A stretch of DNA of 12,192 bases from Campylobacter sp. UBA1713 (GTDB taxonomy: Bacteria > Campylobacterota > Campylobacteria > Campylobacterales > Campylobacteraceae). Made by a program: the position numbers and the translations under genes. The notes under the pieces are model-generated. The model saw only the letters and a list, made by a program, of their open reading frames with translations. It did not search any database and was not told the DNA's origin. Below are positions 130 through 12,192 of this stretch, in pieces. The stretch's first letter is position 1; each line of letters begins with the position of its first letter. The stretch lies in NCBI GenBank assembly GCA_002317305.1, contig DCIZ01000149.1, forward strand, positions 13,548 to 25,739, read 5' to 3'.

Positions 130-231
130 GGGGTCGCAGGGGCTTGCCCCCGTCCACCTTCCCGCCACCACTTTCTTTGAGCTTTAGCGAAAAAAAGTGG
201 TGGCGGGACTACAAAAAAGCGGAGCTTTTTA
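130..231 (+). repeat. Three-hairpin dispersed element, copy A
   Basis: Hairpin 1 is GGGGC-TT-GCCCC (139-150). Hairpin 2 has arms 161-174 (CCCGCCACCACTTT) and 194-207, 14 perfect base pairs, with one mismatch above them and a loop holding GAGCTTTAGCGA. Hairpin 3 is AAAAAGC-GGA-GCTTTTT (214-230) and resembles a rho-independent terminator. CTAC follows the foot of hairpin 2 on this strand, so GTAG precedes it on the other strand. The copy ends 53 bases before the map start codon. No further gene is visible in 1-284. Confidence 0.9.
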
Positions 232-284
232 CCCAATCGGAAGAAGATTTTGCAAATTCGAAAAATTAAACATAAAGGAAAAAT

Positions 285-1043
285 ATGGCTATAAACATAT
301 ATCAACCAAAAGAGATAGAGAAGATAAAAGCGGCGAACCAAGTGGTCGCGCGTGTGCTAGACTTTTTGGAGGGCTTTATAAAGCCGGGCGTAAATTTGTT
401 AGAGATAGACAAAGTTAGCGAAAAGATGATAGTAGAAGCCGGCGCAAAGCCCGCTTTTAAAGGGCTTTATGGCTTTCCAAACGCCGCTTGCATCAGCGTA
501 AACGAAGTTGTCATTCACGGCATTCCGCATGACTACACGCTAAAAGAGGGCGACATAGTTAAGGTAGATTTGGGGGCAAATTTGGGCGGGTTTTTTGGCG
601 ACAGCGCACGGACTTACGGCGTGGGTGAAATTTCAGCAGAGGACAAAGCGCTCATAGCGGTAAGCAAAGATGCCTTTGACTTTGCCTTTTCACAAGTGAA
701 AGTAGGCATGCACTTTAAAGAGCTTTGTTTTAAGCTAGGCGAATTTATCCGACATAGAGGTTACGAGCCGTTGCTGGACTTTTGTGGACACGGCATAGGC
801 AAGAGCCCGCACGAGTCGCCAGAGATTCCAAACTATCTTGATGCGCCAAATCCAAAACAAGGTCCAAAAATTCGCAACGGCATGGTTTTTTGCATAGAGC
901 CCATGATTTGCCAAAAGAGCGGCAAGCCCGTCATAGCAAAAGATGGCTGGACGGTTACGAGCGAGGACGGGCTACGGACAGCTCACTGGGAGAACTGCAT
1001 CGCGGTGGTAAATAACAAACCAGTGGTTTTAAGCAGGGCGTGA
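285..1043 (+). CDS. map: Methionine aminopeptidase, type I
   Basis: This cytosolic metalloprotease removes the initiator methionine from new proteins whose second residue is small. The 252-residue length is normal for the bacterial type I form. The five metal ligands of the pita-bread fold are all visible: D95 and D106 (in KVDLG...GDSARTY), H169 (FCGHGIG), E205 (FCIEPM) and E236 (HWEN). The substrate-binding histidines H79 (VIHG) and H176 (SPHESP) are also present. The ATG at 285 is preceded by AAGGA at a suitable distance. Hairpin-element copy A lies just upstream, and the TGA stop merges into a heptamer array. No clear promoter is visible. The gene stands alone, apart from any ribosomal-protein cluster in this window. 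The family assignment is secure. Confidence 0.97.
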   Translation: MAINIYQPKEIEKIKAANQVVARVLDFLEGFIKPGVNLLEIDKVSEKMIVEAGAKPAFKGLYGFPNAACISVNEVVIHGIPHDYTLKEGDIVKVDLGANLGGFFGDSARTYGVGEISAEDKALIAVSKDAFDFAFSQVKVGMHFKELCFKLGEFIRHRGYEPLLDFCGHGIGKSPHESPEIPNYLDAPNPKQGPKIRNGMVFCIEPMICQKSGKPVIAKDGWTVTSEDGLRTAHWENCIAVVNNKPVVLSRA

Positions 1044-1108
1044 GTGCGTTCAGAATGCAGAATGCAGATTGCGTTCAGAATGCAGAATGCGTGCGGAGTG
1101 CGGAGATT
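1041..1108 (+). repeat. Heptamer array H2, starting at the map stop codon
   Basis: Units are TGAGTGC (1041-1047, containing the map stop), AGAATGC twice (1052-1065), AGATTGC (1066-1072), AGAATGC twice (1077-1090), GGAGTGC (1095-1101) and GGAGATT (1102-1108). Three 4-base inserts, GTTC, GTTC and GTGC, break the array at 1048, 1073 and 1091, so the pattern mixes 7-base and 11-base steps. Confidence 0.8.
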
Positions 1109-1127
1109 TGTGAGCGGAACGACTTTT

Positions 1128-1235
1128 GGGGTCGCAGGGGCTTGCCCCCGCCCACCCGTCCCTCGCCACCGATTTTTTGAGCTTTTAGCGAAAAAAATCG
1201 GTGGCGAGGGACTACAAAAAAGCATTAGCTTTTTA
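1128..1235 (+). repeat. Three-hairpin dispersed element, copy B
   Basis: Hairpin 1 is again GGGGC-TT-GCCCC. Hairpin 2 has 19-base arms at 1160-1178 and 1192-1210 with no mismatch and a 13-base loop, GAGCTTTTAGCGA (1179-1191). Hairpin 3 is AAAAAGC-ATTA-GCTTTTT (1217-1234). CTAC follows the foot of hairpin 2. The outer stem is shared with copy C, but the inner stem (CGATTTTTT) is different from both A and C. The copy lies between map and the ilvI promoter, in the same direction as both genes. Confidence 0.92.
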
Positions 1236-1240
1236 CATAC

Positions 1241-1279
1241 GGAAAACGGAAAACTGAAAACGGAGTGCGTTCAAAATGC
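1241..1279 (+). repeat. Heptamer array H3
   Basis: GGAAAAC (1241-1247), GGAAAAC (1248-1254), TGAAAAC (1255-1261) and GGAGTGC (1262-1268) are in register. They are followed by GTTC and AAAATGC (1273-1279). The same GTTC spacer occurs in array H2. The array directly follows hairpin-element copy B. Confidence 0.78.
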
Positions 1280-1365
1280 ATAAATTTTAAATTTACCACA
1301 AAAATTTAACACAACTAGATTCCATTTAATTTTAATTTTTAAATTTACCTTAATCAAAAAAAAAG

Positions 1366-1371
1366 TATAAT
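1366..1371 (+). promoter_or_regulatory. Probable -10 box of the ilvI-ilvH promoter
   Basis: A perfect TATAAT lies 28 bases before the ilvI start codon. It is preceded by T/A-rich DNA (1318-1365) instead of a recognisable -35 box, which is typical of the vegetative sigma factor in Campylobacter. TSS would fall near 1378. No leader peptide or attenuator is visible in the short leader. Confidence 0.65.
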
Positions 1372-1399
1372 CAAACAAATTTTTTACTAGGAGTTTTTC

Positions 1400-3088
1400 A
1401 TGTTGTTAAATGGTTCTCAAATGATAACGCAGGCGTTAAAACATGAGGGTGTTGAGGTGGTTTTTGGCTACCCTGGCGGTGCGGCACTAAACATCTTTGA
1501 CGAGGTTTACAAACAGAGCGACTACGAGCTCGTTCTTACACGCCACGAGCAAGCTGCAGTCCACGCAGCTGACGGCTACGCACGGGCTTCTGGTAAAGTG
1601 GGCGTGGTCTTTGTAACGAGTGGTCCTGGCTTTACAAACGCCGTTACGGGCATCGCCACAGCGTATGCTGACAGCATTCCGCTCATCATAATAAGCGGAC
1701 AGGTAAATTTGGGGCTTGTTGGCACAGATGCTTTTCAGGAGATAGACGCGGTGGGCATCTCACGCCCTTGCGTAAAACACAACTTTTTAGTCAAGACCAT
1801 CGAGGAGCTTCCACGTGTGCTAAAAGAGGCGTTTTACATAGCAAAAAGCGGTCGCCCAGGACCGGTTCACATAGACATTCCAAAGGACATTAGCATCGCC
1901 GTTGGCGAATTTGAATATCCAGAAAAGATAAAAATGCAAACTTACAAGCCAAATTTAAACGGGCATCCTTTGCAGATAAAAAAGGCTTGCGAGGCGTTAA
2001 GCGCAGCAAAACACCCAGTAGCACTTGTGGGCGGTGGTGCGGTGAGTTCGCACGCTAGCGAAGAGGTGAGAAAATTCGCCCAAAAGACAAACATTCCGTG
2101 CGTGATGACGCTCATGGGGCTTGGGGTTTTGGCTAGCGACTGCCCGCAAAATTTGGGGCTAGTGGGCATGCATGGAAGTTATGCGGCAAACATGACCCTT
2201 AGTGAAGCTGACCTCATCATCTGTTTAGGTGCTCGGTTTGACGACAGAGTTACGGGCAAGGTAAGCGAATTTGGGCGTAATGCAAAGGTGATTCACATAG
2301 ACATAGACCCGAGTAGCATCGGCAAGATCATATCTGTAGACTTTCCGATAGTCGGAGACCTAAAAAACGTTTTGCGAGATATAAACGAAAAAATTTCAAA
2401 TTCCAAATTTGACTTTACGCAGTGGTGGGAGCAGATAGCACTCTACACAAAACTCCATCCGCTTGGCTACACAGATGCAGCAGATGGCGCGCCATTAAAA
2501 CCGCAGTGGGTGGTGGAGAAAACTAGCGAGCTAGCAGGCGAAAAGGCTTTGGTGGTAACAGACGTAGGACAGCACCAAATGTGGGTGGCGCAGTTTTACA
2601 AATTTAGCCGTGCGCGTCAGTTGCTAACTAGTGGCGGGCTTGGGACGATGGGTTACGGCGTGCCAGCAGCGCTTGGTGCGACTTGGGCGCTTGATGACAA
2701 AGAGATTCCAGTGATCTCGTTTAGCGGCGATGCGGGCGTGATGATGAACATTCAAGAGCTTATGACGCTAAAAGCCAACAACAAACGAGTGATAAACATC
2801 GTGCTAAATAACAACTTTTTGGGCATGGTGCGGCAGTGGCAGAGCTTTTTTTATGAGGAGCGGTTTAGTGCGACCGTGCTAACAGAGCAGCCGGACTTTG
2901 TAAAACTAGCCGAAAGCTTTGGGTGCGAAGGCTACCGTGTGAGCGACAAGGCAGGTTTTGAGGCGGCTTTAAAAGCAGCGCTTGCTAGCCAAAAGAGCGC
3001 GTTAATAGAGGTCGTGATAGACCGTTTTGAAAATGTTTTGCCGATGGTGCCAGCAGGCGGTGCGCTTTATAACATGATGTTTAACTAG
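1400..3088 (+). CDS. ilvI: Acetolactate (acetohydroxyacid) synthase, large catalytic subunit
   Basis: ThDP-, FAD- and Mg-dependent enzyme that condenses pyruvate with pyruvate or 2-oxobutyrate, the first shared step of valine, leucine and isoleucine synthesis. The 562 residues show the usual three-part fold. The N-terminal pyrimidine-binding domain carries catalytic E50 (TRHEQAAVHAADGYAR). The central domain includes GARFDDRVTG at about 277-286. The C-terminal ThDP domain holds the GDAG...NNN motif (443-446 to 470-472) and MVRQWQ, the conserved tryptophan site near 480. The start has TAGGAG upstream at a good distance. The regulatory subunit gene follows 3-9 bases later. The symbol ilvI follows usage in Campylobacter; ilvB would be equally valid by function. 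No damage is seen. Confidence 0.97.
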   Translation: MLLNGSQMITQALKHEGVEVVFGYPGGAALNIFDEVYKQSDYELVLTRHEQAAVHAADGYARASGKVGVVFVTSGPGFTNAVTGIATAYADSIPLIIISGQVNLGLVGTDAFQEIDAVGISRPCVKHNFLVKTIEELPRVLKEAFYIAKSGRPGPVHIDIPKDISIAVGEFEYPEKIKMQTYKPNLNGHPLQIKKACEALSAAKHPVALVGGGAVSSHASEEVRKFAQKTNIPCVMTLMGLGVLASDCPQNLGLVGMHGSYAANMTLSEADLIICLGARFDDRVTGKVSEFGRNAKVIHIDIDPSSIGKIISVDFPIVGDLKNVLRDINEKISNSKFDFTQWWEQIALYTKLHPLGYTDAADGAPLKPQWVVEKTSELAGEKALVVTDVGQHQMWVAQFYKFSRARQLLTSGGLGTMGYGVPAALGATWALDDKEIPVISFSGDAGVMMNIQELMTLKANNKRVINIVLNNNFLGMVRQWQSFFYEERFSATVLTEQPDFVKLAESFGCEGYRVSDKAGFEAALKAALASQKSALIEVVIDRFENVLPMVPAGGALYNMMFN

Positions 3089-3097
3089 GAGATGAAA

Positions 3098-3559
3098 ATG
3101 AGACGAGTAATAGCAGTTATAGTTTTGAACGAACACGGAGTTTTGAGTAGAATCGTAGGGCTTTTTAGCGGGCGTGGATATAACATAGACAGCCTAACGG
3201 TTGCGCCAGTGCCAGAGAGTGAATTTTCACGTGTAACCATCGTTACGAGTGGCGACGAGAGGCAGTTTGAGCAGATCATAAAACAGCTTCACAAGCTGAT
3301 TCCTACCTACAAAGTCATAGATAGCGGGAATTTTTTGGAAAAAGAGATGGTTTTGGTAAAGATAAGCATAAACGAAGATTTTAGCGGACTTGACGCCATC
3401 TTAAAGAGCTACAACGCCATCGTTGCAAATGCAAACGAAAACGAAGTCATCATCATGGGTTGCGACAACGCTTCACGCATCGACTGCTTTTTGAGAGTGA
3501 TGAAAAAATTCCACCCGATTCAAGTCGTCAGAAGTGGCTCGGTGATGATAGAGTATTGA
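3098..3559 (+). CDS. ilvH: Acetolactate synthase, small regulatory subunit
   Basis: This ACT-domain subunit binds the large subunit, raises its activity and confers feedback inhibition by valine. The N-terminal ACT domain reads RRVIAVIVLNEHGVLSRIVG, followed by LFSGRGYNIDSLTVAPV, the classic IlvH signature. The C-terminal domain ends RSGSVMIEY. An in-frame ATG at 3092 would add two residues, but the ribosome binding site TAGGAG (3086-3091) abuts it directly. The ATG at 3098 has proper spacing and gives the family's usual MRRVI start, so it is preferred (153 residues). The binding site overlaps the ilvI stop, implying translational coupling. No terminator is visible after the gene, so transcription may continue into the R-M operon. 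Confidence 0.96.
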   Translation: MRRVIAVIVLNEHGVLSRIVGLFSGRGYNIDSLTVAPVPESEFSRVTIVTSGDERQFEQIIKQLHKLIPTYKVIDSGNFLEKEMVLVKISINEDFSGLDAILKSYNAIVANANENEVIIMGCDNASRIDCFLRVMKKFHPIQVVRSGSVMIEY

Positions 3560-3574
3560 AATTTAAGGAGAGAC

Positions 3575-4495
3575 ATGAGTTTGTCATCTGACGTTTGTGA
3601 TGAGGTCGCTAGGTCGCCGTTTTTTTATGTCGGCGACAAATTTAAGCTCATTAAAGAGATAAAAAGCCACTTTCCAAAGAGGATAAATCGTTACTTTGAG
3701 CCGTTTTGTGGCGGTGGAAGCTCTTTTTTAAACGTGAAAGCCAAAAGATATTTTTTAAACGATATAGACAAAAATATCATTGGCTTACACAAATTCGTAA
3801 ATAGTCAAAAGAGAGAGTGGTTTTTTGACGAGATTTTTAAACTAGTAGATTTTTATGGTTTCTCTTGTTCGTTTAAGAATTTCGTGCCACCAAAAACGCT
3901 AAAAGAGCAGTTTAAAAAGACATATTTTGCCAAATTTAACAAAGCTAGTTATGAAAATTTGAGGCGAGATTTTAACGAGAATCAAGAAGATATGTTTAAG
4001 CTTTATCTTTTATTGATATATGGTTTTAACCATATGATTCGATTCAACCAAAAAGGCAAATTTAATTTGCCAGTTGGAAACGTGGATTTTAACAAAAATG
4101 TTGTTAGTGCGCTTGAAAATTATTTTGATTTTGTAAAAACAAAAGAGTTGGAGTTTTCAAATTTGGATTTTGGAGATTTTTTGCGAAATTTTGAATTTAA
4201 AAAAGACGATTTTGTTTACTGCGACCCGCCATATCTCATCAGTAATAGCGAATACAACAAATTTTGGGGCGAAAAAGAGGAGAAAAGGCTTTATGATGTG
4301 CTAGAAATTTTAGACCAAAACGGCGTTTTGTGGGGCGTTAGCAACTTGTTGTTTCACAAGGGAAAAACAAATTTGATTCTGCAAAAATTTATGGTAAAAT
4401 ATCAAAACTACCGAATCAAAAGTAACTACATAAGCTTTAACGACAATTCGGTTAAAAATTCAGTGGAGGTTTTTGTAACAAATGCGAAAGAGTGA
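3575..4495 (+). CDS. DNA adenine N6-methyltransferase, D12 class (Dam/DpnII-like), first R-M methylase
   Basis: Transfers a methyl group from S-adenosylmethionine to adenine N6 in the recognition site, protecting it from the adjacent endonuclease. Of 306 residues, motif I (SAM binding) is FEPFCGGGSS at 41-50 and motif IV (catalysis) is DPPY at 217-220. The segment GFNHMIRFNQKGKFNLPVG (150-168) is the RxNxKGxFNxPxG signature shared by Dam, DpnII and EcoRV methylases. Most of those recognise GATC or a related site. The start is preceded by AAGGAGAG. The end overlaps the endonuclease gene by 14 bases. The DNA is AT-rich: 4081-4140 has 16 G or C in 60, against 39 in 60 at 7741-7800 in queA. This fits lateral acquisition. 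The specificity is inferred, not seen. Confidence 0.92.
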   Translation: MSLSSDVCDEVARSPFFYVGDKFKLIKEIKSHFPKRINRYFEPFCGGGSSFLNVKAKRYFLNDIDKNIIGLHKFVNSQKREWFFDEIFKLVDFYGFSCSFKNFVPPKTLKEQFKKTYFAKFNKASYENLRRDFNENQEDMFKLYLLLIYGFNHMIRFNQKGKFNLPVGNVDFNKNVVSALENYFDFVKTKELEFSNLDFGDFLRNFEFKKDDFVYCDPPYLISNSEYNKFWGEKEEKRLYDVLEILDQNGVLWGVSNLLFHKGKTNLILQKFMVKYQNYRIKSNYISFNDNSVKNSVEVFVTNAKE

Positions 4496-5993
4496 ATTTA
4501 AGCCGTTATCTTTTAGCACGACTTTGAGAAATCCGTCTAGAATCATAAGTTTTTTGGAGGTTTTGGCATCTTTTGATGGCGAAAGACTAACCAACGATGT
4601 CGTGGAAAAGGTCGTTTTTGAGCTAATTCAAAAGCGAATTTACCAGCCTCTTTTTTCACAGCGAAATTTCTCACAAAAAGATGAGTTAAGCGAAAACGAT
4701 GTTTTTGAGATCATCAAAAATTCGCCACAGAATCACAAAGAGAGAGGTTTTGAAAAAGGCTGGCAGTCTAGGTTTGATACGTGGTATAAATTTATCATGG
4801 AGCTTGGTTTTTGTTTTTACGAGATGAATAGTGAAATTTGCATCACAAGAAGTGGTCGTTTACTCTTAAATTCAGCTGAAAATGAGAGCAAGGTGGCAAA
4901 CATTTTCCTAAATGCTTTTGTAAAACAACAAACAAACAACCCATTTCGGCGAGTAAAAAACGCAAACATTCCGCTGGTTTTGCTTTTAAACGTTATGAAA
5001 ACGCTAAAAGAGAGAACAGGTGAGTCGAAAATTTCTTTGGGCGAAATTCCGCTTTTTCTCTGTTGGCGAGATGACGATTCTGTAGCGTTGGCGGACGAAA
5101 TTTTGAAATTTAGAAGTATGTATGGTTTTGATGTGCCTACTGAAATGATTTACGAAAGATGTTTGGAGTTGCTAGATTCTACAAACGAAGTTAGGTTTAA
5201 AAAGTCTCAAATTTGTGGCGAAAGTGCGGACGAATATGTGCGAAAAATGCGAACTACTAGTCTCATCTCGCTTCGTGGAAATGGCAGATTCATAGACTTT
5301 AACACTCTCAAAAAAGAGAAAATTGACTATATTTTGAGGCAAAATTTTAAGCCAAAAGAGTTTAGTAGTCGATTGGAATATAACGTTTTTTTGTCAAATA
5401 TTGACAGCAAAATCATAGAAGAAAAAACAGAGATAGTTTTTGCTGACGAAAACAAGCTAAAAGAGCAGGCTTTGGAAAAATTTGCGAAAAATTACACAAA
5501 AGAACAAATTTTTAATGAACTTTTGGTTTTAAAAAACAAAAACGCAAACAGCAAAGATGTAGTTTTCAAATTTATCCCAGAGCCGACTAGATTCGAATTT
5601 TTGACAGCCATTGCCCTAAAACAAAATTTGTTAAACGTTAAAGTTTTGCCAAATTACAAAATAGACGACGAAGGAATTCTTGTTAGCCACGCTACGGGCA
5701 ACGAAGCTGATATAGTTTGTGTGGACATGCAAAATTTAGCAATAGTCGAAGTGAGTTTGATGAGCGGAAAGAATCAGCTAATTCACGAGATGCTGCCCAT
5801 AACTAGACATCTAAAAGCACGTTTAAAAGAGAGCGACTTTGCTATCTTTGTCGCACCAAAAATTTTTGAAGATTGTAAAAGATATGCTAAATTTATCAAA
5901 TATGATGAAAATTTGACTATTTTAAATTTTAACATAGATGAATTTATGAGTGTGCTAAAAGCGGCAAAGAGTGTAGGAGAGTTAAATGTTTAG
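4482..5993 (+). CDS. AlwI/BspD6I-family type IIS restriction endonuclease
   Basis: A 503-residue protein flanked by two adenine methylases, as expected for an endonuclease with an asymmetric site. The N-terminus has KPLSFSTTLRNPSRI, a motif I associate with the AlwI family. The C-terminus holds the likely nuclease centre: E372 (TRFEFL), D410 (GNEADIV), E423 (IVEVSL) and E436 (LIHEML), with H443 nearby. From memory, Nt.BspD6I uses E418, D456, E469 and E482; the spacings of 38, 13 and 13 residues are the same. ExS replaces the usual ExK, as in that family. AlwI cuts near GGATC, whereas BstNBI, PleI and MlyI use GAGTC; which applies here cannot be read from sequence. No separate small subunit gene like that of BspD6I is visible. 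The reading frame is intact. Confidence 0.85.
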   Translation: MRKSEFKPLSFSTTLRNPSRIISFLEVLASFDGERLTNDVVEKVVFELIQKRIYQPLFSQRNFSQKDELSENDVFEIIKNSPQNHKERGFEKGWQSRFDTWYKFIMELGFCFYEMNSEICITRSGRLLLNSAENESKVANIFLNAFVKQQTNNPFRRVKNANIPLVLLLNVMKTLKERTGESKISLGEIPLFLCWRDDDSVALADEILKFRSMYGFDVPTEMIYERCLELLDSTNEVRFKKSQICGESADEYVRKMRTTSLISLRGNGRFIDFNTLKKEKIDYILRQNFKPKEFSSRLEYNVFLSNIDSKIIEEKTEIVFADENKLKEQALEKFAKNYTKEQIFNELLVLKNKNANSKDVVFKFIPEPTRFEFLTAIALKQNLLNVKVLPNYKIDDEGILVSHATGNEADIVCVDMQNLAIVEVSLMSGKNQLIHEMLPITRHLKARLKESDFAIFVAPKIFEDCKRYAKFIKYDENLTILNFNIDEFMSVLKAAKSVGELNV

Positions 5994-7077
5994 CCTCGCA
6001 AATCGCCGTTATTTGGGCGCAAAAACACGACTTTTGAGTAGAATTTACGAGACGTTAAAACCATTTTTAAAAGGGCTTGAAAATGGCGTTTTTTTTGACG
6101 CGTTTGGTGGAACGGGCGTGGTGGGCGAGCATTTTATAAAAAAAAGCGAATTTTCAAATTTAATAATAAACGATTTTTTGCACTCAAACTACGCGATTTT
6201 TAACGGATTTTTTAAATTTAGTGGCGACTTTGAGAAGCTCAAAAAATTTGCGGTTTTGTTTAATAAAAACAAAAATTGTAAAGAAAATTTCTTTGGTTTA
6301 AATTTTGGCGGGAATTTTTTTAGTGTAAATGACGCGACTAGAATCGGCGATATTCGCACTCATCTTGACGAGCTTTTTGAAAGTGGCGAGATAGACCAAA
6401 GTGAATTTTACATGCTTTTGGCGAGCTTGCTTTTTAGTGCTGACAGAGCGGCAAACACGTGTGGGCACTACGAGGCGTTTCGGCGTGTGGCTTTGGGCGA
6501 TAAATTTAAATTTGAGCTCATTCGTCCGCTTGAGATGCACGCAAAAAATGTGCAAATTTTTCGAAAAGAGACAAACGCTTTGGCGAAAGAGCTAAAAAAC
6601 ATAGACGTTGCGTTTTTAGACCCGCCTTATAACTCACGTCAGTATAGTCGTTGTTATCATTTTTTGGAGACTTTGGCAAAAAACGATAGCCCGGTTTTGA
6701 GTGGTGTGGCAAAAAAACCCCCTTTGGAAAATTTGAGTGAGTATTGTAACGTTGGTGCGGCGGTGGTGTTTGTCGAACTTGTGGAAAGTTTAGCTAAAAA
6801 AAGCAAAATTTTGGCGGTTACTTATAATAACACATATTTTTCAAAATCAACTTCCAGTCAAAACAAAATTTCGTTTGACCAAATAGCACAAACGCTTAAA
6901 AACGCGGGCAAACTTAGCGTTTTTGAATTTGACTTTACGCCGTTTAACGCAGGCAAAACTGAATTTGACGGGCACAAAGAGGTGCTTTTTGTGTGCGAGT
7001 GTTGTGAGTGTGAGAAAAAAGATAGCCAAATTTGCAAAAAAGACTCTTTTGGCGGGCTTTTTGACAGCTATTTTTAA
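5986..7077 (+). CDS. DNA adenine N6-methyltransferase, D12 class, second R-M methylase
   Basis: 363 residues with RRYLGAKTRLL at 7-17, SAM-binding motif I DAFGGTGVVG at 38-47, and catalytic DPPY at 212-215 inside FLDPPYNSRQYSRCYHFLE. It lacks the RxNxKGxFN signature of the first methylase, so the two probably recognise different strands of one asymmetric site. That arrangement is known for type IIS systems (inference here). The ATG overlaps the end of the endonuclease gene by 8 bases and has GGAGAG upstream, so translation is probably coupled. Making the nuclease before this second methylase is notable, because both strands need protection. The cysteine-rich tail (CECCECEKKDSQIC, about 337-350) is unexplained and may bind metal. 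queA follows after 10 bases. Confidence 0.9.
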   Translation: MFSLANRRYLGAKTRLLSRIYETLKPFLKGLENGVFFDAFGGTGVVGEHFIKKSEFSNLIINDFLHSNYAIFNGFFKFSGDFEKLKKFAVLFNKNKNCKENFFGLNFGGNFFSVNDATRIGDIRTHLDELFESGEIDQSEFYMLLASLLFSADRAANTCGHYEAFRRVALGDKFKFELIRPLEMHAKNVQIFRKETNALAKELKNIDVAFLDPPYNSRQYSRCYHFLETLAKNDSPVLSGVAKKPPLENLSEYCNVGAAVVFVELVESLAKKSKILAVTYNNTYFSKSTSSQNKISFDQIAQTLKNAGKLSVFEFDFTPFNAGKTEFDGHKEVLFVCECCECEKKDSQICKKDSFGGLFDSYF

Positions 7078-7087
7078 AAGGAAAAAC

Positions 7088-8092
7088 ATGGACGAATTTG
7101 ACCTAGAAAGTTATGACTATTTTTTGCCGCCAGAGCTTGTGGCTAGCAAGCCTGTGATGCCACGAGGCGAGGCGAGACTGCTAGTTTATGAGCGAAAAAG
7201 TGGCGAAATTCATCACCACAAATTCAAAGAGCTAGCGCAAATTTTGCCGCCGTGTAAGATCATTTTTAATGATACAAAAGTGATAAAAGCGCGGATTTTC
7301 GGCAAAAAAGATAGCGGCGGTGCGGTCGAAGTGCTGCTGAATCAGCCTGTCGGGGAGGGCGTTTTTAACGTTTTTGTGCGTGGAAAGGTTAGCACTGGGA
7401 CGCAAATTCGCTTTGGCGAGAATTTGGCGTGCGAGGTTTTAAGGCTTTGTGAGGACGGCAGCCGTGAGGTCAAATTTAACTGTGCCACTTCGCAGCTTTT
7501 TTCTGTTTGTGAACGCATAGGGCACGTGCCGTTGCCGCCTTACATAAAGCGTGCCGACACGGCGCAAGATGAGAGCTGGTACCAGAGTGTGTTTGCTAAA
7601 TTTGACGGTGCGGTGGCAGCGCCAACGGCGAGTTTGCACTTTGACGAGGAAGCTTTGGCGGCGCTTCGGGCGTCTAGTCATGAGCTTTTTTACCTCACTT
7701 TGCACGTGGGCGCAGGGACGTTTAAGGGGGTGGAGAGTAGCGACATACGGGCGCACAAGATGCACAGCGAGGCGTTTTGCATGGGCGAGGAGACGGCGCG
7801 GCTGGTGGCAAGTAGCGAGGCGATTCTGGGCGTGGGGACGACTGTTACACGTGTGGTGGAATTTTTTGCGAGGCGTGGTGAGCGGAGCGGTTTTTGCGAC
7901 CTTTTTTTGCACCCAAACAACAAGCCGATTCGCCAAAACTACCTGCTGACAAATTTTCACCTGCCACGTTCAACGCTCATCATGCTTGTGGCTAGCTTTG
8001 TGGGGCTAGAAGAGACAAAGCGAATTTATGCTGAAGCGGTCAAGGAGCGTTATAGATTTTACAGCTATGGCGATGGAATGCTGGTGTTGTGA
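7088..8092 (+). CDS. queA: S-adenosylmethionine:tRNA ribosyltransferase-isomerase
   Basis: Transfers and isomerises the ribosyl part of S-adenosylmethionine onto 7-aminomethyl-7-deazaguanine in tRNA, forming epoxyqueuosine in the queuosine pathway. The 334 residues show the family landmarks: FDYDLP-like start (FDLESYDYFLPPELVA), FNDTKVIKARI, HVPLPPYIKR, GAVAAPTASLHF, LHVGAGTF and HSEAFCM, with NFHLPRSTLIMLVASF near the end. The frame is open upstream as far as 6923, but that stretch overlaps the methylase. The ATG at 7088 has AAAAGGAAAAAC in front and gives the normal N-terminus. The gene is clearly GC-richer than the R-M genes, so it looks resident. It is probably co-transcribed with them. 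In C. jejuni, as I recall, ilvH and queA are also near neighbours, which would make the R-M operon the insertion. Confidence 0.96.
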   Translation: MDEFDLESYDYFLPPELVASKPVMPRGEARLLVYERKSGEIHHHKFKELAQILPPCKIIFNDTKVIKARIFGKKDSGGAVEVLLNQPVGEGVFNVFVRGKVSTGTQIRFGENLACEVLRLCEDGSREVKFNCATSQLFSVCERIGHVPLPPYIKRADTAQDESWYQSVFAKFDGAVAAPTASLHFDEEALAALRASSHELFYLTLHVGAGTFKGVESSDIRAHKMHSEAFCMGEETARLVASSEAILGVGTTVTRVVEFFARRGERSGFCDLFLHPNNKPIRQNYLLTNFHLPRSTLIMLVASFVGLEETKRIYAEAVKERYRFYSYGDGMLVL

Positions 8093-8099
8093 GGCGTGT

Positions 8100-8131
8100 G
8101 TTCGGAATGCGGAATGCAGAGTGCGGATTCT
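8100..8131 (+). repeat. Heptamer units just after queA
   Basis: GTTC (8100-8103) is followed in register by GGAATGC, GGAATGC, AGAGTGC and GGATTCT (8104-8131). The start lies 7 bases after the queA stop, and the same GTTC spacer precedes units after map. This opens a gene-free stretch from 8093 to 8880 that is almost entirely composed of repeats. Confidence 0.75.
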
Positions 8132-8140
8132 GTGATTCTC

Positions 8141-8187
8141 TAGAATCGACAAACGAATTTACGAAAAAGCAAATTTTAACAAATTCT
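8141..8187 (+). repeat. AT-rich dispersed repeat, copy 2
   Basis: The unit begins TAGAATC and ends AAAAAGCAAATTTTAACAAATTC(T). It matches 8279-8321 and 8617-8659 at both ends, with a few differences in the middle. It leads directly into a heptamer array at 8188. Confidence 0.7.
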
Positions 8188-8215
8188 GTTTTCCGTTTTC
8201 TGCATTCTGTTTTCC
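8188..8215 (-). repeat. Heptamer array H4
   Basis: GTTTTCC (8188-8194), GTTTTCT (8195-8201), GCATTCT (8202-8208) and GTTTTCC (8209-8215) are in exact register. On the minus strand they read GGAAAAC, AGAATGC, AGAAAAC and GGAAAAC. Confidence 0.78.
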
Positions 8216-8220
8216 GTTAC

Positions 8221-8261
8221 CGCCGTCATTCTGAGGGAGCGGTAGCGACCGAAGAATCCCC
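8221..8261 (+). repeat. CATTCTGAG...GAAGAATCCCC repeat, copy 1
   Basis: CGCCGTCATTCTGAGGG is joined to CGAAGAATCCCC by a short variable centre (AGCGGTAGCGAC). The two ends are partly complementary (ATTCT with AGAAT), so the unit can fold into a hairpin. Further copies are at 8565-8601 and, inverted, at 8701-8743. Similar motifs occur, as I recall, in unrelated bacteria. Confidence 0.75.
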
Positions 8262-8278
8262 CCCGCCTTTTGAGTAAG

Positions 8279-8321
8279 TAGAATCGTAAAATTCACAAAA
8301 AAGCAAATTTTTACAAATTCC
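8279..8321 (+). repeat. AT-rich dispersed repeat, copy 3
   Basis: TAGAATC followed by TTCACAAAAAAGCAAATTTT and ACAAATTCC. It follows CATTCTGAG repeat copy 1, just as copy 4 (8617-8659) follows CATTCTGAG copy 2, so the two units move or are copied as a pair. It runs into heptamer array H5. Confidence 0.75.
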
Positions 8322-8356
8322 GTTTTCTGTTTTCTGTTTTCTGCACTCCGTTTTCC
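8322..8356 (-). repeat. Heptamer array H5
   Basis: Five units in perfect register: GTTTTCT three times (8322-8342), GCACTCC (8343-8349) and GTTTTCC (8350-8356). On the minus strand they read GGAAAAC, GGAGTGC and AGAAAAC three times. Hairpin-element copy C begins five bases later. Confidence 0.82.
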
Positions 8357-8360
8357 GATA

Positions 8361-8473
8361 GGTAAAAAAGCTAACGCTTTTTTTGTAGTCCCTCGCCACG
8401 TTTTCTTTTCGCTAAAAGCTCAAAGAAAACGTGGCGAGGGACGGGGGACGGGGGCTTTCGCCCCTGCGACCCC
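8361..8473 (-). repeat. Three-hairpin dispersed element, copy C
   Basis: The canonical orientation reads on the minus strand. Hairpin 3 is AAAAAGC-TAAC-GCTTTTT near 8365-8382. GTAG precedes hairpin 2, whose 19-base arms at 8390-8408 and 8422-8440 pair perfectly. Its 13-base loop (8409-8421) is the exact reverse complement of the loop in copy B. Hairpin 1 is GGGGC-TTTC-GCCCC, followed by TGCGACCCC. The inner stem (GTTTTCTTT) differs from copy B (CGATTTTTT) in both arms together. Confidence 0.92.
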
Positions 8474-8478
8474 TTTTT

Positions 8479-8534
8479 TGAAAACGGAGAACAGAATGCG
8501 GAGTGTGGAGTGTGGAGTGCAGAGTGCGGAAGTT
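8479..8534 (+). repeat. Heptamer array H6, the longest uninterrupted one
   Basis: Eight units in unbroken 7-base register: TGAAAAC, GGAGAAC, AGAATGC, GGAGTGT, GGAGTGT, GGAGTGC, AGAGTGC and GGAAGTT. Most fit the pattern RGARWRY or a close variant. The array directly follows element copy C and shows that the AAAAC-type and ATGC-type units belong to one family. Confidence 0.85.
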
Positions 8535-8564
8535 TTGCGATTATTAAAAAAAGCAAAAACAAAA

Positions 8565-8601
8565 CGCCGTCATTCTGAGGGCGAAAGCCCGAAGAATCCC
8601 C
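8565..8601 (+). repeat. CATTCTGAG...GAAGAATCCCC repeat, copy 2
   Basis: CGCCGTCATTCTGAGGG then CGAAAGCC then CGAAGAATCCCC; the centre GGGCGAAAGCCC is itself a small GAAA-loop hairpin. It is the left arm of an inverted pair with copy 3 (8701-8743). Confidence 0.78.
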
Positions 8602-8616
8602 TGCCTGGCGAGCGAG

Positions 8617-8659
8617 TAGAATCTACAAATTCACAAAAAAGCAAATTTTTTACAAATTC
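8617..8659 (+). repeat. AT-rich dispersed repeat, copy 4
   Basis: TAGAATC, TTCACAAAAAAGCAAATTTT and ACAAATTC match copy 3 closely. It lies between CATTCTGAG copies 2 and 3; its opening GTAGAATCT (8616-8624) is complementary to AGATTCTAC at 8678-8686, forming an inner inverted repeat. Confidence 0.75.
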
Positions 8660-8700
8660 GCTTTTTCTTAAATTTACAGATTCTACGCCCTCAAATTTCA

Positions 8701-8743
8701 GGGGATTCTTCGGTCGGCTTTGCCTCCCTCAGAATGACGGCGG
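8701..8743 (-). repeat. CATTCTGAG...GAAGAATCCCC repeat, copy 3 (inverted)
   Basis: GGGGATTCTTCGG opens the unit and CCCTCAGAATGACGGCGG closes it, the reverse complement of copies 1 and 2. Its centre (TCGGCTTTGCCT) differs from both. Confidence 0.77.
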
Positions 8744-8747
8744 TAAC

Positions 8748-8768
8748 GGAAAATGGAAAACAGAATTT
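8748..8768 (+). repeat. Short heptamer array H7
   Basis: GGAAAAT, GGAAAAC and AGAATTT (8748-8768) are in 7-base register and lead into an inverted copy of the AT-rich repeat at 8763-8794. Confidence 0.6.
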
Positions 8769-8794
8769 ATGAAAATTTGCTTTTTTGTAAATTT
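8763..8794 (-). repeat. AT-rich dispersed repeat, copy 5 (inverted)
   Basis: The minus strand reads AAATTTACAAAAAAGCAAAT followed by TTTCATAAATTC, matching the core of copies 3 and 4. From 8795 to 8852 nothing further is recognised. Confidence 0.65.
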
Positions 8795-8852
8795 AAAGAA
8801 ACATTTTTGCTTTGCAAAAAGCACTTCGCTTGTTTTAGCTTTTTACTCGCTC

Positions 8853-8887
8853 AAAAAGGCGTGAATTCTTGCATTTTTTATCACGCC
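8853..8887 (-). terminator. Rho-independent terminator of the Abi-like/rhodanese operon
   Basis: On the minus strand GGCGTGA (8887-8881) and TCACGCC (8864-8858) form a seven-base-pair stem around a 16-base AT-rich loop, followed at once by TTTTT (8857-8853). The left arm includes the last alanine codon and the stop codon of the rhodanese gene. Confidence 0.7.
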
Positions 8888-9189
8888 AAAAATTCGGCGA
8901 ATTTCTCCGTGTCAAGCCGCATAAAACCGCAGTCAAGGCAGAAAATTTCGCCACAAAAGCCCAGTTTTTCTACCTTTTGTGCCATCTCTACCGAGCGTGT
9001 TCCAGCGAAGCAGACGAGATAAATTTCGCTTTTTTCTTTTGCAAATTTTACTATCTCTTCGGCGGCTTGCAAATTTACACTCTCTTTTAGGTGTGCCGCT
9101 TTAAAGCTGTTTTTTACACGAATGTCTACCACGCAAACGCCACGTTTTAGTGCGTCAAAAAGCGTGCTTTCATCGATTTTTCGAATCAT
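8881..9189 (-). CDS. Single-domain rhodanese-like protein
   Basis: Small cytosolic sulfurtransferase-type protein of GlpE/PspE size. The rhodanese landmarks are present: VVDIR near the start, AAHLKESVNL (the substrate-side conserved stretch) and the active-site loop CFAGTRS with the catalytic cysteine, which would carry a persulfide. The ATG at 9201 would overlap the upstream stop as TAATG and give 106 residues. The ATG four codons later (9189) is preceded by GGAGAG at good spacing, giving 102 residues, and is preferred. It is the second gene of a two-gene unit with the Abi-like gene and ends in a terminator that overlaps its stop codon. The sulfur donor and acceptor are unknown, and no signal peptide is visible. 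Confidence 0.88.
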   Translation of the reverse strand: MIRKIDESTLFDALKRGVCVVDIRVKNSFKAAHLKESVNLQAAEEIVKFAKEKSEIYLVCFAGTRSVEMAQKVEKLGFCGEIFCLDCGFMRLDTEKFAEFLA

Positions 9190-9200
9190 TTTTCTCTCCA

Positions 9201-9959
9201 TTATTCATAATCAAATTTTAATTTTATAAGGCTATTTTCGCTCAAATTTAAGCCATTTTTTGGGTTGTAGCCAAGTCTTAAAAGTAGTATCTCTGCATCT
9301 TTTGGGAGCTTGACGTTTGATTTTTTGTTGTGATAGACTTCGTTTCGAAAGTGTCTTATTTGGTTTAATTTATCTGTTAGTTGTTTTCTCGTTCCATAAG
9401 TAGCCAAAATTTGCCCTTTAAAGCTTTTTTCACTAGCAAAAATGCGCTTTAAATCTTGCCAAAAAATTTCAACTATTGTTATCAAATCACCAAAAGTAAA
9501 CAGGTCAAAAATGTCAAAAGTGTTTTGAATTTCTACACTGCAGCCTCCAAATCTCTTTGAATTTGTTGTTTTTATTTTTAAGATTTTTGCACGTTTTTCA
9601 GCTAAATTTTCAGTGTAAAAGCCATCTTTTTCCTCCTTAAACCAGTCGTCATTTTCACCAAAAACGGCTGAAATTTCAACAGCCAAAGTGCTACGAAGCG
9701 CTATCTCAAAGCAGTGCAAAAACGCAAGTTTGTCTTGGTGTGCTTTTTGTCGTTTGTTGTAGGTGTAAAGCAACGTGTCAAAGAGATTCTCAAAGGTTTT
9801 GTCTGTTTTGTTTAGCTCCTTTGCAGCACCTTCTATGTAGCCAAAATATAGCGTTTTTATGGCGATTTTTAGTCTATTTTTGAAGTCATCTGTGAAAAGG
9901 TTTTCATGTTTTTTTAAAATATGTAGAATTTTTGCATGTTCGTTTTCTAACAGTGCCAT
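9201..9959 (-). CDS. Abi_2-like (AbiD/AbiF-type) protein with a HEPN-like RNxxxH motif
   Basis: 252 residues, no membrane segment or signal peptide. The pattern of conserved blocks recalls the Abi_2 family of abortive phage-infection proteins: HCFEIALRSTLAVEIS (82-97), DLFTFGDLITIVEIFWQDL (152-170) and LNQIRHFRNEVYHNK (198-212). The last block contains R205-N-E-V-Y-H210, an Rx4H arrangement typical of HEPN ribonucleases, several of which are toxins. Abi function is an inference from these motifs; overall similarity to a characterised Abi protein has not been tested. The start has AAGGAAA upstream and a TATAAT box 28 bases before it. The stop overlaps a possible rhodanese start as TAATG. It lies 2.1 kb from the R-M operon, which fits a defence role. 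Confidence 0.6.
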   Translation of the reverse strand: MALLENEHAKILHILKKHENLFTDDFKNRLKIAIKTLYFGYIEGAAKELNKTDKTFENLFDTLLYTYNKRQKAHQDKLAFLHCFEIALRSTLAVEISAVFGENDDWFKEEKDGFYTENLAEKRAKILKIKTTNSKRFGGCSVEIQNTFDIFDLFTFGDLITIVEIFWQDLKRIFASEKSFKGQILATYGTRKQLTDKLNQIRHFRNEVYHNKKSNVKLPKDAEILLLRLGYNPKNGLNLSENSLIKLKFDYE

Positions 9960-9986
9960 AAATTTCCTTTCTGATAAATTTTTAGC

Positions 9987-9992
9987 ATTATA
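9987..9992 (-). promoter_or_regulatory. Probable -10 box of the Abi-like gene
   Basis: On the minus strand TATAAT lies 28 bases before the ATG at 9959, with AT-rich DNA upstream and no clear -35 box. It gives the Abi-like/rhodanese pair its own transcription start, downstream of the small-RNA candidate. Confidence 0.6.
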
Positions 9993-10058
9993 TCAAGAAA
10001 TTTATAAATATGCAAGTTTTTTAAATTTGTAGATAAAAATATGTGAGTTAAAAGGCAA

Positions 10059-10126
10059 GTTAAGGGTGGTGTTGGTTTGTCTAGTTTCGAACCTAGACCT
10101 GCACTCATGGCAGCACGTCCCTTAAC
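10059..10126 (-). ncRNA. Unidentified structured small-RNA candidate
   Basis: A 68-base segment folds into a rod. The outer stem is 8 bp (10059-10066 with 10119-10126, GTTAAGGG/CCCTTAAC). Then come a 2x2 internal loop, a 6 bp stem (10069-10074 with 10111-10116), a lopsided loop (4 and 12 bases) and a 6 bp stem (10079-10084 with 10093-10098) closed by an 8-base loop. The unpaired side holds CTGC...GCAG, which can form its own small stem. On the minus strand a perfect TATAAT ends 7 bases before the first G. I do not recognise the family. It is not a tRNA (the T-like arm does not adjoin the acceptor stem, and 68 bases is short), and it lacks the GGAA loop and GCAGC of SRP RNA. The plus strand, where the rod ends in TTTTGTTATT, cannot be excluded. 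Confidence 0.45.
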
Positions 10127-10133
10127 TTTTGTT

Positions 10134-10139
10134 ATTATA
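10134..10139 (-). promoter_or_regulatory. Probable -10 box of the small-RNA candidate
   Basis: TATAAT on the minus strand lies 7 bases before the first base of the rod-shaped RNA. Upstream are two AT-rich repeats of 20-22 bases, about two helical turns each, resembling the periodic AT signal that replaces the -35 box in Campylobacter. Confidence 0.55.
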
Positions 10140-10196
10140 CTTAAATATACCTAAATATAAGCTTAAATATACCTAAATAAGCTTAAAATAAGCTTT
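10140..10196. repeat. AT-rich tandem repeat
   Basis: CTTAAATATACCTAAATATAAG (10140-10161) is followed by CTTAAATATACCTAAATAAG (10162-10181), then a degenerate start CTTAAAATAAG. The last part, AGCTTA-AAA-TAAGCT followed by TTTT (10180-10198), is a short hairpin that could act as a weak terminator. The rest of 9960-10212 holds the two promoters and the small-RNA candidate. Confidence 0.7.
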
Positions 10197-10212
10197 TTAG
10201 GTATTAAAAACC

Positions 10213-10899
10213 TCACTCGCTCAGTTTTGTCATCTCCTCCTCAAACACCTTTGTCCTTCTTGTGCTACTTTTTACCTTTGTCTCGTAAGGCTTTTTAGCT
10301 AGTGCGTTTCGTGCTTGACTTACCGCCTTTGGTGCTGGCTTTTCCACGCCCAAAAATGCACGCTCAAGCTCCACAAAGCTCATCAGCAAATTTGCATATG
10401 CCTTAAAAAAGTTGCTCCTGTCGTGCTCGGCTAAAAGCTCGCAAAACTCATCTACAAAGCCGTTTATGATCTCATCAAAAAGCCTACGCGCCAGCTCCTC
10501 TTTGCCCTCACGCAAAAAGCGACTCATGTAGGTAAAAATGAGCCCTATGTAGTCCTCGCTCAAATTTGCCTCCACGCCTATCTCGCCGCTTTTTAGAATC
10601 TCTATGACTTCGCTTCGTTTTTTGCCATCGTCTCTGCCCTCGTCGTAAAAGCTCGCCGTTTGCGGAACGTTTACAAAACTTAGGTCAAAAAGGACGCCGT
10701 TTTGCTCTTTTTTAAATTTGCTCCACTCAAAACGTGAGAGTTTTTTAAAGTCTTTTTCGTTTTCTGGGTATATCAAATTTTCGCTAAGAACTTCGCTTTG
10801 TTGGACAAATTTGTAAAAACCCTCCTCGTTTTCGTCCCAAAATAGCGGAAAACTCAAAAATTCATAATACATACTTCGTGCCAAATTCATCTCATTCAT
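10213..10899 (-). CDS. TorD/DmsD-family molybdoenzyme chaperone
   Basis: Cytosolic helical chaperone of a kind that binds Tat signal peptides and helps load the molybdenum cofactor into an enzyme before export. The 228 residues show the TorD pattern: SMYYEFLSFPLF at the start, VPQTASFYDEGRDDG near 78-92, EDYIGLIFTYMSRFLREGKE (115-134) and FFKAYANLLMSFVELERAF (164-182). The lysine- and arginine-rich tail (about 187-218) is an extension. The frame is open up to 11082, but that part is read through hairpin-element copy D. The ATG at 10899 has AAGGAAAAAG in front and gives a normal N-terminus. The partner enzyme is not in the window. Formate dehydrogenase is a plausible one, given the 4Fe-4S gene upstream (inference). 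Confidence 0.82.
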   Translation of the reverse strand: MNEMNLARSMYYEFLSFPLFWDENEEGFYKFVQQSEVLSENLIYPENEKDFKKLSRFEWSKFKKEQNGVLFDLSFVNVPQTASFYDEGRDDGKKRSEVIEILKSGEIGVEANLSEDYIGLIFTYMSRFLREGKEELARRLFDEIINGFVDEFCELLAEHDRSNFFKAYANLLMSFVELERAFLGVEKPAPKAVSQARNALAKKPYETKVKSSTRRTKVFEEEMTKLSE

Positions 10900-10934
10900 C
10901 TTTTTCCTTTTTTTATTTTTTAATGTCGAATTTT

Positions 10935-11045
10935 GGTAAAAAGCTAACGCTTTTTTTGTAGCCTCCGCCCAAACTCTTTTTTCTCTAAAGCTCAAAAGAG
11001 AGTTTGGGCGGAGGCGGAGGACGGGGGCTTTGCCCCTGCGACCCC
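10935..11045 (-). repeat. Three-hairpin dispersed element, copy D
   Basis: The canonical orientation reads on the minus strand. Hairpin 3 is AAAAAGC-TAAC-GCTTTTT (10938-10955). GTAG (10958-10961) overlaps the first base of the hairpin 2 foot. Hairpin 2 has 17 perfect pairs (10961-10977 with 10999-11015), then one G-T and four A-T pairs, with loop CTCTAAAGCTC (10983-10993). Hairpin 1 is GGGGC-TTT-GCCCC, then TGCGACCCC. Its stem (CCTCCGCCCAAACTCT) is the most different from the other copies, yet it is still complementary. It fills the gap between the 4Fe-4S and TorD-like genes, 35 bases from the TorD start. Confidence 0.9.
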
Positions 11046-12129: not shown

Positions 12130-12192
12130 GGTAAAAAGCTATCGCTTTTTAGATTGTCCCATCGCCATTTTTCTTTTTCGATAAATCTCAAA
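12130..12192 (-). repeat. Three-hairpin dispersed element, copy E, cut by the window end
   Basis: Hairpin 3 is AAAAAGC-TATC-GCTTTTT (12133-12150). The left arm of hairpin 2 starts CCCATCGCCATTTTT, and the loop CGATAAATCTC is a diverged version of the conserved one. The first bases of the right arm (AAA) are reached at the window end. AGATTGT replaces GTAGT before the stem. The copy lies 47 bases upstream of the 4Fe-4S gene start. Confidence 0.75.

Follow-up and report, generated by a model that had tools for sequence, protein, structure and literature searches.

Three-hairpin elements dispersed in a Campylobacter genome, with a middle stem that varies from copy to copy while staying paired

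Described repeats and the element of Campylobacter sp. UBA1713

Palindromic repeats with a variable yet paired centre are already on record in Pseudomonas, where REPINs place conserved ends around a spacer hairpin and where, in the part of the paper devoted to these spacers, compensatory changes are called common (PMC3116915). The element presented here has a comparable design. It was noticed in a window of 12,192 nucleotides (nt) of Campylobacter sp. UBA1713, by which we mean the whole stretch of DNA first analysed (contig DCIZ01000149.1, positions 13,548 to 25,739 of the forward strand, the last base being also that of the contig), and it recurs in the host genome, a draft of 1.7 Mb in 160 contigs, 97.5% complete. 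The unit consists of three hairpins in series, about 105 nt in total: hairpin 1 reads GGGGTCGCAGGGGC-loop-GCCCCCG, hairpin 2 has a stem usually of 18–23 bp closed by a GAG...CGA loop, and hairpin 3 reads AAAAAGC-loop-GCTTTTT. Hairpins 1 and 3 are conserved by their sequence, hairpin 2 mainly by its pairing, with mismatches that show no wobble preference. On balance, they probably form a REP/BIME-like family (repetitive extragenic palindromes and bacterial interspersed mosaic elements) of short, palindromic and interspersed DNA elements, the pairing of which is kept at the DNA level and which are spread by an enzyme not identified here.

The likeness to the REPINs of P. fluorescens, as portrayed in the relevant sections of PMC3116915, extends to several traits: both are short, intergenic and of high copy number, with conserved ends and a spacer that is free in sequence yet able to pair. 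In 139 copies retained for counting (see below), hairpin 2 has 108 different left arms, and 97.4% of its pairs are of the Watson–Crick type. The original prediction, which knew of no described family with this design, was accordingly too strong on this point, since compensated spacer hairpins are already part of what the same sections report of REPINs. As for the sequence itself, no described family matched it: none of 4,227 Rfam families reached its gathering threshold in the window, and two 13-mers of hairpin 1 retrieved no paper from the open-access full text. Moreover, the ends of REPINs are inverted REP sequences that go with RAYT genes (REP-associated tyrosine transposases) in the account of PMC3116915, whereas here the ends are two different hairpins, 1 and 3, unrelated in sequence. 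A profile search for the Y1 transposase of RAYTs (PF01797) gave no match in the host genome, while the same search found matches in 5 of 14 control genomes.

Being palindromic, interspersed and often arranged as inverted dimers, the element also resembles the GTAG and CGTC REPs and the BIMEs, in the sections of PMC3733652 that compare these classes, and the broad definition of BIMEs and REPs, high-copy intergenic palindromes with an excess of inverted dimers, suits it. Narrower definitions do not. GTAG REPs have stems of 6–13 bp and CGTC REPs stems of 8–9 bp with A or T at the first two positions (same sections), whereas here a middle stem of 18–23 bp varies by copy and the tags are not constant: CTAC, which is GTAG on the other strand, marks the base of hairpin 2 in just 34 of the 139 copies, and CGTC follows hairpin 1 in 99 of them, on a stem, GGGGC/GCCCC, that is not that of a CGTC REP. 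Tandem pairs, called rare among REPs, make up 15 of the 39 pairs of copies lying within 1 kb of each other. To see in the element an ordinary member of a described REP, REPIN or MITE (miniature inverted-repeat transposable element) family, one may point to its high copy number, mostly intergenic location, palindromes and excess of tail-to-tail pairs, and to the compensated spacer hairpins of REPINs (PMC3116915, as above); this is nonetheless improbable, given the scarcity of the CTAC tag, the lack of a Y1_Tnp match, conserved ends that are not inverted copies of each other, and a full-text search that returned no paper for the two 13-mers. In short, the element works like a REPIN, yet it has neither the inverted ends, nor the constant tag, nor, by the profile search, a RAYT.

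Other systems provide analogies. Integron attC sites carry the core-site motifs of the integrase in a folded single strand. The double-hairpin elements of Allomyces are comparable to the hairpin elements of sponge mitochondria. The latter are repetitive and of high copy number, spread in intergenic regions and are sometimes made of double or triple hairpins, as the element is, but in the pertinent part of PMC2800124 it is the stems that are conserved and the loops that gather substitutions, the reverse of what is found here. Finally, the homogenisation of arms, the compensated changes and the inversion of loop or spacer recall template switching, also termed quasipalindrome correction, as presented in parts of PMC8794818, PMC8604942 and PMC7202029. 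The cases described there come from genes for rRNA and microRNA, from coding genes of yeast and from reporters in E. coli, whereas here the process would act on hundreds of copies of a family in parallel.

Pairing of the middle stem

Copies were collected by the presence of hairpin 1 (at most one substitution in its 12-base start) and of hairpin 3, with 66–110 bases between them; copies with an N or a second start inside were left aside, identical sequences were counted once, and pairing was not a selection criterion. In all 139 copies of this set hairpin 2 is present, over 14–23 aligned columns (at least 18 in 136). Among its 2,869 pairs 75 are mismatched (2.6%), a figure that undercounts terminal mismatches because stems were aligned locally, which trims their ends. 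Eighty copies are perfect, while the remaining 59 hold all 75 mismatches together with 17 gap columns, these being confined to 11 copies. The best partner of a left arm is its own right arm in 97 of the 139, and the mean arm score is 38.6 with the own arm against 20.8 with swapped ones. Unpaired arms in many copies, the outcome that the original prediction had named as its refutation, were sought and not found. A recount of the 211 distinct hairpin 1 sites present in the fetched stretches retains 136, the difference from 139 being a matter of deduplication; 27 sites run into N, 26 have no hairpin 3 within 200 bases, 12 lie at the edge of a fetched stretch, 4 meet a second start first, 3 are too long and 3 are too short, having lost hairpin 2. 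Outside the length limits of the 139-copy set, three copies (L012, L029 and L085:390) keep hairpins 1 and 3 with most or all of hairpin 2 gone, so that hairpin 2 cannot be an absolute requirement for a copy's survival.

Covariation was scored on two alignments. The first, fitted with a covariance model, holds the best 150 of 160 matches from 90 sources (the window and 89 loci) and leans to structure; its paired cells amount to 98.1%, against 83.4% after shuffling, its covariation score is 0.403, against 0.130 when shuffled and 0.047–0.103 when partners are slid, and in 22 pairs both partners have changed, among them every one of the 15 that make up the main helix of hairpin 2. The second, built free of structure from 67 copies, gives the same picture, with a score of 0.367 against 0.130 and 16 double-changed pairs, a count reached by 44 of 500 shuffles. 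Larger inverted repeats that often enclose the elements served as a control, and they show no covariation copy by copy (own 16.25, swapped 15.40, in 52 of the 67 copies). The claim that the two arms change together around a conserved loop is thus fully supported, by the pairing of the 139 copies as well as by both alignments, and the covariation test that had been called for puts the score far above its shuffled and slid controls. Around many elements, arms are formed by degenerate 7-base tandem repeats of the CCGTTTT, CTGTTTT and CCGCACT types, without copy-specific pairing; in the window these repeats lie at 65–127, 1052–1110, 8104–8220 and 8479–8530, and many element flanks hold them as well.

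Could such palindromes be false, produced by amplification or scaffolding? The genome is a draft of 160 contigs, and the sites that run into N or stop at an edge, numbered above, would be in keeping with an artefact. It is however very improbable that this is the explanation, in view of the 108 left arms in 139 copies, of a conserved loop that is nearly always in one polarity, and of enclosing inverted repeats in which no such arm-for-arm match is seen.

Within the window, the four complete copies that the original prediction had placed at 130–231, 1128–1235, 8361–8473 and 10935–11045 are all present there. Element A (130–230, forward strand) has hairpin 1 at 130–152, the arms of hairpin 2 at 160–178 and 190–208 around a loop at 179–189, and hairpin 3 at 213–230; it lies upstream of a methionine aminopeptidase gene (285–1043, forward strand). 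Element B (1128–1234, forward strand), with that gene on one side and an acetolactate synthase gene on the other, has hairpin 1 at 1128–1150, arms at 1158–1178 and 1192–1212 around a loop at 1179–1191, forming 21 perfect pairs, and hairpin 3 at 1216–1234. The other two are on the reverse strand: element C (8364–8473) has hairpin 1 at 8449–8473, hairpin 2 at 8388–8442, again with 21 perfect pairs, and hairpin 3 at 8364–8384, and element D (10938–11045) has hairpin 1 at 11022–11045, hairpin 2 at 10961–11015 and hairpin 3 at 10938–10957. Their stems had been described as made of 14 to 19 perfect pairs; the arms are indeed paired, but the unbroken lengths are 15, 21, 21 and 17 bp in A to D, and a single C.A mismatch near the loop in A and in D is followed by 3 and 4 more pairs, respectively. 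Folded as single-stranded DNA, A, B, C and D have z-scores of -4.6, -10.5, -9.8 and -6.2, and in each case none of 200 shuffles folds as well as the real element. Two truncated copies on the reverse strand had been missed: at 1–24, head-to-head with element A, only hairpin 1 falls inside the window, the element running past its left edge, and at 12133–12192 hairpin 3 and a part of hairpin 2 are cut short where the window and the contig end.

Likely upkeep of the stem at the DNA level

Equal-length comparisons between copies give mean pairwise differences of 0.02 for hairpin 1 and 0.03 for hairpin 3, as against 0.30–0.31 for the two spacers and 0.35–0.41 for an arm of hairpin 2. The stem of hairpin 2 varies about as much as the spacers, which argues that the ends are held by sequence and the middle mainly by pairing; the three T:A pairs of this stem that lie nearest the loop hardly vary. 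In the 126 copies that have no gap and a stem of at least 18, where the stems of a pair of copies differ at a single position (such pairs not being independent of one another), the change is double in 60 cases and single in 77, and transitions account for 56 of the double ones. This agrees with a point mutation that strikes one arm and is subsequently matched by the other. Nearest-neighbour stems show 149 double and 47 single changes, and 43 of the 126 are identical. In three copies, L015, L069 and L085:11539, the loop is found in reverse orientation inside a paired stem; the first two belong to the 139-copy set, with one mismatch each, and the third has no normal hairpin 3. Arm homogenisation and inversion of loop or spacer are listed as footprints of template switching in the parts of PMC8794818 and PMC8604942 that bear on them, and the events that PMC7202029 recounts for E. 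coli bring a quasipalindrome closer to perfection.

Conserved RNA structures are usually argued from pairwise covariation, which is very strong here, without sign of selection at the RNA level. If the copies were transcribed structured RNAs (elements of untranslated regions, processing or stability hairpins, terminators), selection on the RNA fold would keep hairpin 2 paired. In agreement with this are the covariation itself, the position of nearly all copies outside long open reading frames (ORFs), with 1 of 110 inside an ORF of more than 300 aa, several copies whose end lies some 50 nt ahead of a start codon, and sense copies that are somewhat commoner than antisense ones (43 and 29 of 110 copies with enough flank, another 14 being divergent, 14 convergent and 10 left without assignment). 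The mismatches of hairpin 2 argue otherwise, with 25 G.T, 25 A.C and 25 of other types, hence no excess of G.U over A.C. Because copies face both ways with respect to genes, and a bias might thereby be masked, mismatches were counted again by gene direction, on 140 copies holding 76 of them, with neighbours defined by ORF calling: in the 72 copies with both neighbours codirectional, there are, read as RNA, 13 wobble, 11 A.C and 17 other mismatches. These counts disagree with a 4:1 excess of wobble over A.C, the ratio assumed for the test (P = 0.004), and do not depart from 1:1. Nor is there enrichment between convergent genes, or, in the window, any Rfam match at gathering threshold. The orientation of copies relative to local GC skew shows no clear bias (64 and 50 of 114). 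All told, a transcribed regulatory RNA is not what the element resembles, and we hold this explanation to be quite unlikely.

Loops point in the same direction. GNA and GNNA loops are especially stable in DNA. They close hairpin 3 in 131 of the 139 copies, 126 times as GNNA and never, among these, as GNRA; in hairpin 1 they are found in 76 copies, with CTTG in 17 and 15 loops not parsed. Reverse-complement loop types number none in hairpin 1 and three in hairpin 3, so that the loops of both hairpins have one polarity. This evidence for the DNA level is suggestive only, because the stability of GNA and GNNA loops in DNA is general background and GNRA and CUUG loops are given, in the section of PMC8794818 concerned, as exceptionally stable in DNA and RNA alike. 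The lack of a G.U preference, the three inverted loops and the small dependence on gene direction favour the DNA level, and we think it likely that the pairing of hairpin 2 is a DNA matter. The family is a test case for how far copying between arms, at the DNA level, can mimic RNA covariation.

The original prediction had offered a choice between a fold under selection and a process that rewrites one arm from the other. The fork was the right one; the data push it toward DNA, and leave standing both arm copying and selection for a single-strand fold. On which of the two dominates we are less confident than on DNA-level pairing. Along the first branch, that of arm copying, the stem of hairpin 2 would form while its DNA is single-stranded at the replication fork, template switching would copy into one arm any point mutation arisen in the other, and pairing would thereby be kept at the DNA level, possibly helped by a requirement for the fold while the element is copied. 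That template switching alone, with no selection on the fold, holds mismatches near 2.6% in about 200 diverging copies is a possibility that we entertain tentatively. If true, this would be a natural case of overwhelming covariation, which normally passes for proof of a conserved RNA, arising without RNA function. Along the second branch, selection would act on a folded single-stranded DNA intermediate alone: only paired copies would be mobilised, in the manner of integron attC sites and as has been suggested for REPINs, and neutral decay would follow. This explains outer hairpins conserved in sequence, a middle conserved in structure only and mismatches that look neutral, and the mismatch load, about 1.3% per base, is near the distance of hairpins 1 and 3 from their consensus, taken as half of their mean difference of 2–3%; REPIN spacers, in the sections of PMC3116915 that treat them, behave alike. 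Selection of this kind does not predict loop inversions, however, no mobilising enzyme was identified, and copies with a damaged outer hairpin seem equally well paired, with 8 of 315 pairs mismatched in copies lacking one outer hairpin against 44 of 2,389 in complete ones (P = 0.38, for 15 damaged copies that were selected for pairing and give low power). As a sole cause it is rather unlikely. The explanations weighed in this study overlap, and the probabilities that we attach to them are not shares of a whole. Mismatch repair acting between the arms was also considered and set aside: the search found no MutL above the cut-off, with one weak match of 20 bits.

We infer that the element is mobile. 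The unit is found in several different flanks, and its spreading machinery would recognise hairpins 1 and 3. Against the picture of a mobile DNA element whose stem is kept up by template switching, a number of points have to be set. No transposition was seen, and the profile search in the 97.5% complete draft found no Y1 transposase. Joining the flanks gave no clean empty site, an ambiguous outcome as the flanks are low-complexity repeats, and genomes of the same genus are too distant for a comparison of sites (67–72% identity of methionine aminopeptidase). The wobble test by gene direction comprises 41 mismatches only, with simple ORF calling, and the lead of sense over antisense copies (P = 0.12) goes the other way. 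As for the loops, hairpin 1 has 50 of GNNA type, 20 of which are GAAA and so belong to GNRA as well, and those of hairpin 3 share ancestry (GTTA in 102 of 139), hence are not 139 independent events. The double changes mostly concern single positions, not tracts, and do not single out template switching, the role of which in the upkeep of short RNA stems rests on circumstantial evidence in the words of the part of PMC8794818 dealing with it. Finally, comparison of stems with their nearest neighbours gives 7 double and 7 single changes in damaged copies against 118 and 41 in complete ones, and maintenance may be weaker in damaged copies. Some 200 copies evolving in parallel in one genome make up a natural experiment on bacterial quasipalindrome correction, in which mismatches, corrected pairs and inverted loops can all be counted.

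Distribution, relatives of hairpin 1 and other genes

The 14-mer of hairpin 1 has 220 exact copies in the host genome (114 and 106 by strand) and the hairpin 3 pattern 201, while both patterns, read backwards, have none. A scan for the hairpin 1 pattern yields 207 copies in this genome; no copy turns up in the 15 genomes scanned from the rest of the genus. The observation thus reaches well beyond the window. In a covariance-model search of the host, as the original prediction had proposed, all 150 candidates scored (from 2,746 at first look) match, as against none in 15 further genomes of the genus (best 150 candidates scored per genome) and none in 149 other genomes of the family (best 26 per genome, under stricter filters). 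Plasmid and phage collections contained no relatives of the whole element. Among the genomes searched, the family was found in its host only; it is probably non-autonomous. The 39 pairs of copies lying within 1 kb are tail-to-tail in 20 cases, tandem in 15 and head-to-head in 4, tail-to-tail thus accounting for 20 of the 24 inverted pairs (P = 0.0015), and outer inverted repeats surround the element in some contexts. Some contig ends lie inside or beside these hairpins, and the elements themselves seem to break the assembly of the draft.

Hairpin 1 also has a life of its own. A Gloeomargaritales cyanobacterium (genome G150, locus L092), the sole match in a collection of genomes, holds 191 exact copies of the 14-mer, in a MITE-like repeat with the same GGGGTCGCAGGGGC-NNN-GCCCCCG hairpin; unlike the element, this hairpin sits between TATAGCAATCCTA-type terminal repeats, and hairpins 2 and 3 are missing in the copies viewed. 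Three of 386 genomes of the cyanobacterial phylum, G150 included, have the hairpin 1 pattern, in 164, 115 and 2 copies. In G150 and in G235 hairpin 1 occurs more than 100 times each, mostly within a different element with terminal inverted repeats, to judge from the copies viewed. Two phage scaffolds from human faeces have it as well, with GAA and GTA loops (L269:401-425 and L270:401-424), in weak matches (E = 0.009 and 0.4); no hairpin 3 pattern follows within 135 bases in the former, and the latter ends about 30 bases past hairpin 1. Three further matches, on viral contigs, look like chance in GC-rich DNA, and hairpin 1 alone found nothing below E = 1 in plasmids. Such a likeness of so short a hairpin across genomes may reflect either common descent or convergence. 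Its presence in a cyanobacterial repeat hints at a portable recognition hairpin, and the question of the enzyme had already been raised for CGTC REPs, which have no known transposase in the part of PMC3733652 that discusses them.

Elsewhere in the host genome, a gene on the reverse strand (L174:989-4306, that is, contig C159:3488-6805) codes for a protein of 1,105 aa. A calcineurin-like phosphoesterase domain (PF00149) occupies its N-terminal part; AAA_23 is matched slightly under the cut-off, and a CPTC motif is present. Its domains suggest a fusion of the SbcD-SbcC (Mre11-Rad50)-like type in a single polypeptide. It scores 48 bits in a search for the SbcD family (cut-off 77.65), with three far weaker matches in the genus, and PADLOC gives a weak match to LmuB, of 21.5 bits. 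It occurs in 1 of 150 genomes of the family (E 1e-10). A search for relatives found 118 proteins, itself included and most of them unnamed; the named phage collection gave partial matches only, over at most 23% of the protein, and full-length relatives come from IMG/VR contigs that measure up to 104 kb, so that the protein may come from a phage. A bolder addition to the reading by template switching alone would have this phage-type protein, found only here among the 150 family genomes, open the hairpins. That the two share a genome is no proof, only a lead.

In the window itself, another dispersed palindrome, CGTCATTCTGAGG...CGAAGAATCC, which resembles CGTC-tagged REPs, stands near many elements in the same intergenic regions; it is found at 8224–8259 and 8568–8599 on the forward strand and at 8703–8739 on the reverse strand. 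The closest named relatives of the aminopeptidase are Campylobacter proteins, with 73% identity to that of C. iguaniorum, which places the host in this genus. Two D12-class adenine methyltransferases around an AlwI-like endonuclease (3575–7077, forward strand) form a probable restriction-modification operon, and at 9201–9959, on the reverse strand, an Abi_2-like protein (PF07751, just above the cut-off) is encoded by a possible abortive-infection gene.

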